In this document: piece by piece, positions 1-54,899 of the stretch
Layout of the letters: every line of letters starts with the position of its first letter
How positions within the stretch are numbered: the stretch's first letter is position 1
Translations under genes and position numbers: made by a program
The notes under the pieces: generated by a model
What the model was told of the DNA's origin: nothing
Seen by the model: the letters and a program-made list of their open reading frames with translations, nothing else
Databases searched by the model: none
Assembly (NCBI GenBank): GCA_949300515.1
Contig: CASGEP010000007.1
Location: forward strand, 1-64,000
Direction of reading: 5' to 3'
DNA: 64,000 nucleotides
From: an uncultured bacterium
Lineage (GTDB): Bacteria; Cyanobacteriota; Vampirovibrionia; Gastranaerophilales; Gastranaerophilaceae

Positions 1-355
1 ATGCAGGCCGCGCGGATGTTGCGCGTTACCAACAATCAAAAAAATAAACGCTAATAACGTTGTAAAAGCTGACTTTGCTCCCAGAGCAATCGCTGCATAA
101 GTTGCGCGACAGCCACTCTATTTTGCCAGCTTGCCGCAATTTAGGGTCAATTATGCAAGCCTTGGCGTTTGCAGCTTGAGGCGCAAACGTTTAAGTATTT
201 AGCCTTAAGGGGTTGCCTTTCCTTATAAAATAGGCTCTGGCGATTAATTTGGTTGAAGATATCTTTCCGATTTTTCGCCGAGATTAAAAGATTCTAAGCT
301 TGTAGATTCGCGCTTGTTATCATTTTGGACGCGGGTTCGACTCCCGCCGTCTCCA
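1..355 (+). ncRNA. ssrA: tmRNA (ssrA), 5' end outside the window
   Basis: Rescues stalled ribosomes by acting first as tRNA-Ala and then as a short mRNA. The tag reading frame runs from GCT at 50 to TAA at 98-100 and encodes ANNVVKADFAPRAIAA, ending in the usual small hydrophobic degron. The 3' end has a T-arm (GGGTTCGACTCCC) followed by the acceptor strand GTCTCC and discriminator A at 355; CCA is not encoded. The ANNVV start resembles cyanobacterial tags (ANNIV). Only the first few dozen nucleotides are missing. It is directly followed by a structured repeat also found after tRNA-Ser at 54234. Antisense reading frames across it are artefacts. Confidence 0.93.
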
Positions 356-397
356 AACTTTCGAAGCTTGAGCCATACTCCGACGGAGTAGGCGAAA
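340..397 (+). repeat. 58-bp direct repeat, copy 1 (ssrA 3' end plus stem-loop)
   Basis: Starts in the tmRNA T-loop, runs through the acceptor strand and continues into a 40-nt imperfect hairpin (CTTTCG at 358-363 pairing with CGAAAG at 393-398, inner ACTCC-gac-GGAGT). It is repeated at 614-671 with one mismatch. The arrangement resembles the attL/attR duplication left by elements that integrate into tRNA 3' ends. Confidence 0.85.
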
Positions 398-469
398 GCA
401 AGAAAGCATAAGGATGTGAGAGCGTGACGGTTTTGCGAAGGCAAAAGCGGACAGCTCGACACTGGACTA
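357..469 (+). ncRNA. tRNA-tail structured element, L unit (ssrA locus)
   Basis: Begins two nucleotides after the mature tmRNA end and closely matches 54324-54437 after tRNA-Ser. Shared blocks are the ACTTTCGAAGC stem-loop, GCAAGAAAG, AGGATGTGA, ACGG, GAAG, GCGG and GACACTGGACTA. Between the blocks are two helices: GAGC(420-423)/GCTC(454-457) and TTTTGC(431-436)-GAAG-GCAAAA(441-446). The tRNA-Ser copy has different bases in both helices yet keeps them paired, which supports a selected RNA structure. Function unknown; no coding potential seen. Confidence 0.6.
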
Positions 470-613
470 AATATTGTAACGCGCGGGAGGAGAACACGCA
501 CAAGGCTTTAGCCTTGTATCAAGGGTTCGGCGGATTTTGCGGGGCGTGTAACGAAGTGAACGCCCATTGCGAGCAAACCCGTTGAGGGTTGCGAGTCCGC
601 AATAATCCAAGAC
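470..613 (+). other. variable spacer of the tail element, no gene
   Basis: Not alignable with the equivalent stretch after tRNA-Ser (54438-54578), but also rich in short hairpins, for example GGGCGT...ACGCCC near 540-565 and AACCC...GGGTT near 575-595. No credible reading frame, promoter or terminator is visible. Confidence 0.5.
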
Positions 614-671
614 ACTCCCGCCGTCTCCAAACTTTCGAAGCTTGAACCATACTCCGACGGAGTAGGCGAAA
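614..671 (+). repeat. 58-bp direct repeat, copy 2 (partial ssrA 3' end)
   Basis: Second copy of 340-397, 274 bp downstream, with a single difference (GAACC for GAGCC). It contains the T-stem 3' strand and acceptor strand of tmRNA but no complete RNA gene, like the right-hand attachment site of a tRNA-targeting element. Confidence 0.85.
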
Positions 672-790
672 TGCGCAAGCCGGAGTGAGCCTTAAGGGCT
701 TGCGATGAGCAAGACCGTAAGGCGCAACTGTCGATAGGCGACGTAGGATAATCGAGCGCATTGGCGCGAGATACCCACAGGAGCCATGCG
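631..790 (+). ncRNA. tRNA-tail structured element, R unit (ssrA locus)
   Basis: The stem-loop is followed by a roughly 77-nt block (672-748) that differs at only two positions from 54633-54709 after tRNA-Ser. The block folds as CGCAAGCC...GGCTTGCG. Next comes a hairpin whose sequence differs completely between loci (here TCGAGCGC-attg-GCGCGAGA, 752-771), inserted between the same flanks GACGTAGGA and ACAGGAGC. Function unknown. Confidence 0.55.
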
Positions 791-40651: not shown

Positions 40652-41123
40652 AAGCGAAAAGCCTGCAATAAGCCGGATTCCGTTTTTCAGACAATCATCT
40701 GTCTAATGCGTTTTTTTATGTAACTTTCACAAAGGAAACGGGAAAAGGCACCCTTTTTACAAATTCAAACTTGCATCCGGTTGGGGTTTACCATGCCTGA
40801 AACCTCACGGTTTCAGCGGTGGGCTCTTACTCCGCCGTTGCACAATCGCTTAGTATCAAGATTGCTGCTGCGGGTATTTCGGCAGTACTCACTTGCAATG
40901 GCAAGTTCGCTGCCTCAATTATCCTGCGCCGCTCATCTGAAGTTACGCCTTTTGCACTTGCAAAAGCAAGCACGCAAGGGCTTCACCAAGCATTCTACTT
41001 TTCTGTGGCACTGTCCTCACGCTCGCGCGCACTTGAATTTCTCAAGCAACCTGCCTTTTGGGATGTCCGGACTTTCCTCACAAAATTTAAAACTTTGCGC
41101 GATTGTCCGCCTGCTTTTCGCTT
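40652..41123 (-). ncRNA. rnpB: RNase P RNA
   Basis: Catalytic RNA of tRNA 5' maturation. On the minus strand the universal GAGGAAAGTCCGG lies at 41079-41067, and CCGGCTTAT lies near the 3' end (about 40675-40667). The ends pair as P1: AAGCGAAAAGC (41123-41113) with GCTTTTCGCTT (40662-40652). Its 472-nt length fits a bacterial A-type RNA. Open frames on the plus strand here are artefacts. Confidence 0.93.
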
Positions 41124-54063: not shown

Positions 54064-54233
54064 CCCCTTAATTTTTCTACATACGGTTGTATCCCTTATG
54101 CCGTATGCGATACAGCTATTACTACAAATATAGAACATGGCAATATTTTGACATATTTTTTACAAAATCGAATTATAAAATCTTGATTGTTTTGAGTATT
54201 TTTGATAGGATTTTATTATTGAGATTTATATTT

Positions 54234-54322
54234 GGAGAAATGGCCGAGTGGCTGAAGGCGGCACCCTGCTAAGGTGTTATGTGGAGAATTCTGCATCGAG
54301 GGTTCGAATCCCTCTTTCTCCG
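54234..54322 (+). tRNA. tRNA-Ser (anticodon GCT)
   Basis: 89 nt with a long variable arm. Acceptor GGAGAAA pairs with TTTCTCC, discriminator G at 54322, D-arm GGCCGAGTGGCTGAAGGC, anticodon loop CTGCTAA (anticodon GCT), T-arm GGGTTCGAATCCC. CCA is not encoded. A structured repeat starts 2 nt downstream, as at ssrA, and an accessory region follows. Confidence 0.95.
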
Positions 54323-54364
54323 TACTTTCGAAGCTTGAGCCATACTCCGACGGAGTGGGCGAAA
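54311..54364 (+). repeat. 54-bp direct repeat, copy 1 (tRNA-Ser 3' end plus stem-loop)
   Basis: Covers the T-stem 3' strand, acceptor strand and the 40-nt stem-loop. Repeated without mismatch at 54579-54632. The part beyond the tRNA end matches the ssrA locus (358-397) with one difference. Confidence 0.9.
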
Positions 54365-54437
54365 GCAAGAAAGTTTTAGGATGTGAGAAATTAGACGGCT
54401 TGTCGAAGGACAAGGCGGCAATTTCGACACTGGACTA
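54324..54437 (+). ncRNA. tRNA-tail structured element, L unit (tRNA-Ser locus)
   Basis: Same order of conserved blocks as 357-469. Here the two helices are GAAAT(54387-54391)/ATTTC(54421-54425) and CTTGTC(54399-54404)-GAAG-GACAAG(54409-54414). Compared with ssrA, three base pairs of the inner helix and two of the outer helix change on both strands together. The 54438-54578 spacer that follows differs from that at ssrA but also forms hairpins (GAAATC-ttt-GATTTC). Confidence 0.6.
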
Positions 54438-54578
54438 CACTGTTTTAGCTTGAGGGGTGAGAACCCTCGATGTGAGGGTGAGAATCCTACGACAAATCCG
54501 AAATCTTTGATTTCGTGATTTGACGGATGCAATAAGCGTAAAATTTCAAGGGCGAAGCCCGTAGAAATTGAGCGTTTG

Positions 54579-54632
54579 CCTCTTTCTCCGTACTTTCGAA
54601 GCTTGAGCCATACTCCGACGGAGTGGGCGAAA
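54579..54632 (+). repeat. 54-bp direct repeat, copy 2 (partial tRNA-Ser 3' end)
   Basis: Exact copy of 54311-54364, 268 bp away. It holds only the last 12 nt of the tRNA, as in an attR site. Confidence 0.9.
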
Positions 54633-54745
54633 TGCGCAAGCCGGAGTGAGCCTTAAGGGCTTGCGATGAGCAAGACCGCAAGGCGCAACTATCGATAGGC
54701 GACGTAGGAGTTTTGGAACAAAACTCTACAGGAGCAATGCGTAAG
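54592..54745 (+). ncRNA. tRNA-tail structured element, R unit (tRNA-Ser locus)
   Basis: Stem-loop, then the 77-nt conserved block, then the hairpin GAGTTTT-ggaac-AAAACTC (54708-54726) in the place of the unrelated hairpin at ssrA, then TACAGGAGC and ATGCG. Replacement of a whole hairpin between identical flanks suggests the pairing matters more than the sequence. Confidence 0.55.
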
Positions 54746-54773: not shown

Positions 54774-54899
54774 AAGATCCTGAAACAAGTTCAGGATGAC
54801 AAAATATCGGGTTCAGGATGACAGTACATTGAATTCAGGATGACGGTACATTGGGTCGGGATGACGGAATAAAAGAATTCAAAATGACAAAATTAAACG
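54774..54899 (+). repeat. 22-bp tandem repeat array
   Basis: A palindromic AAGATCCTGAAACAAGTTCAGG unit leads into five 22-bp units starting at 54790, 54812, 54834, 54856 and 54878 (consensus TTCAGGATGACRGTACATTG plus 2 nt), with decay towards the end. The unit is one arm of the dispersed TCATCCTGAA palindrome. There are no spacers, so this is not a CRISPR array. Confidence 0.8.

Follow-up and report, generated by a model that had tools for sequence, protein, structure and literature searches.

What follows the tmRNA gene and the tRNA-Ser gene in this genome of the Gastranaerophilaceae: an RNA that belongs to these genes, or a DNA element that was inserted behind them? The stretch analyzed here (the window, 64,000 nucleotides in total) forms the start of an 81-kb contig within a 1.72-Mb MAG, and its host genus belongs to the non-photosynthetic gut cyanobacteria. 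The first gene, a tmRNA (1-356, forward strand; Rfam RF00023, 81.6 bits), is present without its 5' part, the contig end coinciding with the window start and the RF00023 model matching from position 43. The second is a tRNA-Ser(GCT) (54233-54323, forward strand; ARAGORN and Rfam), the 3' end of which was called at 54322/54323. A sequence-only reading had proposed that both are followed by the same structured RNA of no described family, perhaps a tRNA-linked one (357-790 and 54324-54745), whose helices change in sequence but stay paired. The tails themselves, their coordinates and the paired helices were borne out by the sequence, and Rfam searches at gathering and permissive thresholds returned no credible family in either tail besides tmRNA and tRNA. 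Both tails were predicted to fold far more stably than shuffled sequences (z -5.5 and -8.5). Neither contains an open reading frame of at least 150 aa, and the inserts are too short for a gene such as an integrase.

Along each tail the order is gene, hairpin A, insert, the 3' end of the gene together with the start of hairpin A again, and module R. This layout follows from a feature that had gone unnoticed, namely that the sequence with which the 'L' and 'R' units of the sequence-only reading both open is a direct repeat beginning inside the gene. In the tmRNA tail (all features on the forward strand), the first repeat copy (340-397) comprises the last 17 nt of the tmRNA and the start of hairpin A; its 58 nt are 98% identical to the second copy (614-671), found by repeat search, which opens with the copied tmRNA 3' end, ACTCCCGCCGTCTCCA. 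Enclosed between them are the module B hairpin (411-469, AGGATGTGAG ... GACACTGGACTA; detected by pattern, covariation and the covariance model R1 with E 9e-21), an antisense-like T arm of the tmRNA (481-499, GCGCGGGAGGAGAACACGC; its own gene is the best antisense match among 34 genes, with a score of 9.5) and the core of module C, a hairpin-ended repeat with other copies elsewhere (530-613). The REP-like module R follows at 672-800 and was recognized by its sequence and by further copies. In the tRNA-Ser tail (forward strand), the first repeat copy (54311-54364; last 12 nt of the tRNA and start of hairpin A) is identical over 54 nt (100%) to the second one (54579-54632), which was likewise found by repeat search and opens with the copied tRNA-Ser 3' end, CCTCTTTCTCCG. 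Here the repeats enclose a second variant of the module B hairpin (54378-54437; pattern and covariance model), an antisense T arm of tRNA-Ser that had also escaped notice (54452-54472, GAGGGGTGAGAACCCTCGATG; an inverted repeat with 54294-54314, 86% over 21 nt, the own gene ranking 1 of 34) and the core of unit D (54473-54578, GGGTGAGAATCCTACGACAAATCC ... GCGTTTG). Module R with another hairpin variant (54633-54745; assigned by sequence and by its similarity to 672-790) completes the tail. As had been described, the whole hairpin of module R is exchanged between identical flanks, namely GACGTAGGA, which contains GTAG and precedes the hairpin, and ACAGGAG.

The claim of a conserved hairpin with many double substitutions concerned module B, and it held up well. 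The two copies in the window lie between identical flanks (AGGATGTGAG and GACACTGGACTA) and contain the helices TTTTGC/GCAAAA (431-436/441-446) and GAGC/GCTC (420-423/454-457) at the tmRNA, and CTTGTC/GACAAG (54399-54404/54409-54414) and GAAATT/AATTTC at tRNA-Ser. Among 30 distinct copies, GGATGTGAG and CGANACTGGAC are common to all, arranged around two stems, and the copies split mostly into two classes according to the internal loop. In class 1 (11 sequences), 99.2% of the cells pair and 8 of the 12 pairs show double changes; the covariation score was 0.705 versus a shuffled mean of 0.207, and the signal was lost when the pairing partners were slid. Class 2 (10 sequences) scored 0.588 versus 0.218, and for both classes the shuffle controls ignore kinship. 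The G-U content, considered as a means to distinguish RNA from DNA structure, was not informative (19 of 335 pairs in the B hairpins and 57 of 712 in the tRNAs of the same genome, no clear difference).

The tRNA linkage of this hairpin did not hold up in the form proposed. The proposed covariance-model scan of relatives did retrieve 106 copies of module B in all 15 genomes of the genus, but most of them do not follow a tRNA gene (in the own genome, 2 of 9 come after tRNA or tmRNA); in other genomes they lie at terminators, in intergenic tandem arrays and at the ends of genes that resemble groEL in their GGM-rich C-terminal codons. Since most copies sit away from tRNA and tmRNA genes, an outcome that the sequence-only reading had itself named as refuting, module B is not tRNA-linked in itself: it is a dispersed structured repeat. 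Matches to the B hairpin pattern in named genomes come from Ca. Gastranaerophilales MAGs, gut bacteria and Cyanobacteria bacterium SIG27, with one exception, a match in Boseongicola (L149), which we took as a chance hit of the pattern used. At four loci (L118, L130, L133 and L146) the B hairpin stands directly at an apparent groEL 3' end (ATGGGAATGATGTAA), and some of these elements then show a further copy of that gene end, i.e. regenerated ends also occur beyond tRNA genes.

The tRNA linkage belongs instead to the unit around module B, that is, to types C and D and to the direct repeats. Unit D (54473-54578 plus flanks) gave 19 matches in 14 of the 15 genus genomes, 17 of which follow tRNA-Ser(GCT), tmRNA or tRNA-His(GTG), while the remaining two lie on contig ends beside a copy of such a 3' end. 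An intact unit D terminates in 10-16 nt of the 3' end of its particular host gene; this copy is degenerate in a few cases (e.g. G004, G006 and G001). Unit C follows the tmRNA in five genomes and tRNA-Ala in one, and in tmRNA tails units C and D occur in either order. The core of module C (84-86 nt) has pairing ends and may be a MITE-type element of its own, although the duplications at gene ends, at 38-58 nt, are not the short ones expected of a MITE and no transposase could be connected with the units. This hairpin-ended repeat (GCGGATTTTGCG ... CGCAATAATCCAAGAC) was seen both inside tRNA tails and alone (L062, L052, L064, L066 and window 530-613).

How such units come to stand behind a gene can be read from the direct repeats. 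In the window each insert is bracketed by a repeat of 54-58 nt, made up of the gene end and about 42 nt downstream of it, and each insert closes by regenerating the 3' end of its host gene. The best-preserved duplications at gene ends (38-58 nt) start within the 3' strand of the T arm and extend beyond the gene end; the host gene is thereby left complete, with a second copy of its 3' end behind the insert. The genomes compared, all of them MAGs with assembly gaps in some of the arrays, contain empty and filled versions of the same tRNA-Ser site. In G003 and G013 the site is empty and consists of gene, terminator and flank; in G009 the gene and terminator are followed by two copies of a 169-nt unit (an insert of about 123 nt plus a repeat of about 46 nt of gene end and terminator) and then by the same flank as in the empty sites; G001 contains one unit, and G005 a different insert with a 38-nt repeat. 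At the tmRNA, G005 has a repeat of 43 nt and the window one of 58 nt (98%); in other genomes it has decayed to exact matches of 14-22 nt. The tail units are insertions that duplicated a long stretch of their target and did not disrupt the gene.

Besides the copied gene end, the tRNA-linked tails hold an antisense of the T arm of the gene they follow. Among 34 genes compared, the own gene was the top match for 8 of 10 tails; the clearest case is the tmRNA tail of G003, where GGAGTCGAACCCGCGT is exact over 16 nt, and a weak one is the tmRNA tail of G007, where the own gene ranked 11 of 34. The center of the antisense arm is often altered (TTCGAA to TGAGAA, or TCGAA to GAGAA).

To our knowledge, the combination of a copied gene end and an antisense arm is otherwise found at only one odd locus, tyrT/rtT of E. 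coli. Known since the 1970s, the rtT repeats there have been regarded as a curiosity of a single locus, with neither their origin nor their role clear. In E. coli tyrT/tyrV the last 19 nt of tRNA-Tyr recur at a spacing of 178 nt, and the rtT units each carry an antisense T arm, the first of which reads GGGGAAGGATGAGAAGCTTCG where the exact antisense would be GGGGAAGGATTCGAACCTTCG; the tRNA-Ser units described here show the same TTCGAA to TGAGAA change. In common with rtT (RF00391), the units stand directly behind a tRNA gene, close with a copy of its 3' end and can occur in tandem. With E values up to 5 allowed, the RtT covariance model matched neither tail, and the same search found four units in E. 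coli; as the model matches those four and none here, the units of the window share the layout of rtT units and fall outside the RtT sequence family. They also differ from E. coli rtT in that several tRNA genes and the tmRNA are affected, in that their modules are exchangeable, and in that mirrored units occur on the 5' side of genes. In the literature searched, no paper was found on rtT or on repeats in Gastranaerophilales.

Taking these observations together, we consider it about an even call that the tails are rtT-like tRNA-tail repeats, i.e. short units of exchangeable hairpin modules that contain no protein gene and entered tRNA and tmRNA genes at their ends. The units would arise by insertion or copying at the DNA level at the quasi-palindromic T arm (or, for the mirrored units, at the D arm) and would then grow or shrink via recombination between the direct repeats, while the cores may spread from gene to gene. 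Units ahead of a working terminator would be co-transcribed with the gene and cut away in tRNA processing, and the hairpins may be kept because folding, as RNA or as single-stranded DNA, aids spread or renders the insert harmless. This insertion reading draws on the direct repeats in the window and in relatives, on the empty, single and tandem sites at tRNA-Ser, on the occurrence of units C and D in either order at the tmRNA, on the same D core following three different genes with the end of each particular gene, on the own-gene antisense, on the own-end copies, which are frequent in the two genus genomes tallied and nearly absent from two other genera and from the controls, and on the matching layout of E. 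coli tyrT/rtT, the altered center of the antisense T arm included. On the other side, no mobilizer was found among Y1 transposases, RVT_1 and the viral contigs examined, the strong covariation suggests a constraint on structure, and the insertion reading does not account for how a core gains the antisense of each new host gene. Furthermore, some 5' units are common to the same tRNA genes of two species, which fits a long-lived function as well as it fits old insertions.

These 5' units are absent from the window and were tallied, together with the 3' copies, in two genus genomes and in two outgroups, for which most but not all tRNA genes were included. With the criterion of an exact match of at least 10 nt within 230 nt upstream, a copy of the own 5' end was found at 14 of 32 tRNA genes in G000 and at 15 of 32 in G014; copies of the own 3' end lie downstream of 6 and 4 tRNA genes, respectively. 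In G020 (same family) neither kind was found among 35 tRNA genes, in G045 (same order) the counts were 0 (5') and 2 (3') among 34, and control pairs of a gene with a foreign flank yielded about zero own-end copies. An antisense D arm is usually located between the 5' copy and the gene. The 5' units at the tRNA loci of G000 and G014 (L013-L042, L151, L152 and L153-L202) often contain a repeated leader resembling TTGAAAATTGAATAA. A search for a sequence common to the 5' inserts by MAFFT alignment indicated a shared layout, with little shared sequence between different tRNA genes.

The alternative that survives best is a switch in tRNA maturation, in which an antisense arm in the leader or trailer has two competing partners, the decoy copy of the gene end and the tRNA, so that its choice between them would tune folding and processing of the precursor. 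A regulatory role of this kind is conceivable because the antisense is gene-specific: upstream of the tRNA genes, the own gene ranked first in 11 of 32 and among the top three in 19 of 32. The D-arm antisense usually matches the gene over 8-16 nt and the copy over a shorter stretch (3-8 nt, in one case 13), and unit length varies little (89-101 nt in many cases). When leader and tRNA are folded together, the cloverleaf is predicted to be disrupted, albeit in minimum-energy folds that leave out co-transcriptional folding. We nevertheless regard such a switch as unlikely, given that the units are absent at the other half of the tRNA genes, in two other genera and at orthologous genes in sister species, that several trailers sit behind a terminator-like hairpin (e.g. 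in G009), and that the center of the T-arm antisense is often altered in a way that weakens the pairing.

A second alternative needs neither a regulatory function nor selection on the hairpins. Template switching during replication at the quasi-palindromic D and T arms could have made the pattern of direct copy, inverted copy and direct copy that is seen on both sides of genes, and repeated switching could have kept the hairpins paired and exchanged whole hairpins between identical flanks. Published work (PMC8794818) shows that template switching can both form and mend hairpins in a single step, with compensating changes of several bases. The double substitutions, which the sequence-only reading found hard to explain otherwise, are therefore no proof by themselves of selection on RNA. 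In insertion-prone repeat systems, perfect compensating changes in a hairpin are not enough to call a functional RNA. As an explanation for the units as a whole, template switching seems improbable to us, since the C and D cores recur at different genes, requiring transfer between loci, and since the conserved unpaired flanks and internal loops around the varying stems point to constraint.

Elements that integrate into tRNA genes restore the 3' end of their target and produce a direct repeat, as do the units described here. Miniature elements resembling tiny satellites of these, mobilized in trans by a site-specific recombinase with the tRNA arms as its attachment sites, would accordingly explain the regenerated gene ends, the direct repeats that start in the T arm and resemble attachment-site cores, and the tandem and order-swapped units. 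This is likewise a poor prospect in our estimate: the units measure only about 120-270 nt, far too small for an integrase, the repeats reach far beyond the gene end, consist of sequence from the host locus itself and differ from gene to gene, the 5' insertions mirror the 3' ones, and no viral contig matched the B or D pattern, which speaks against viral spread. Mobilization by a RAYT or by a conserved reverse transcriptase is unlikely, with the Y1 transposase absent in 14 of the 15 genus genomes, the own genome included, and RVT_1 missing in the unit-bearing G003, G007, G008 and G013 and present in other genera.

Two further repeat systems invite comparison. REP sequences with RAYT (Y1) transposases are short palindromes often located downstream of genes (PMC3733652); module R also has GTAG beside a hairpin and may resemble them in this, and the units described here are longer and composite. 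The units also resemble, as modular hairpin repeats between genes with a varying number of modules, the BOX elements of Streptococcus pneumoniae, intergenic repeats of the same modular kind; the blocks differ, as far as a comparison by description goes, and we know of no BOX element that carries copies of a tRNA end.

Returning to the insertion reading and its regulatory counterpart, it is possible, if rather doubtful, that throughout the genus about half of the tRNA genes and the tmRNA are bracketed by units that carry both a decoy of the gene's end and an antisense, specific to that gene, of its D or T arm, either as a new switch in tRNA maturation or as the trace of a novel mode of insertion in which the target end is copied in both orientations. 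If this were true, the E. coli rtT locus would gain a family and a mechanism. The 5' units, present at roughly half of the tRNA genes, could prove the larger discovery. An rtT-like layout at about half of the tRNA genes of one genus, on both sides and with close relatives differing in empty and filled sites, makes origin and function testable by comparison. Elsewhere in the window, an ordinary class A RNase P RNA was found on the reverse strand (40653-41118, 184.6 bits). Another dispersed palindromic repeat, CTGAAACAAGTTCAGGATGACA, adjoins the tails (window 54779-54870 and around 937-963) and also occurs at L011 (1340-1640).
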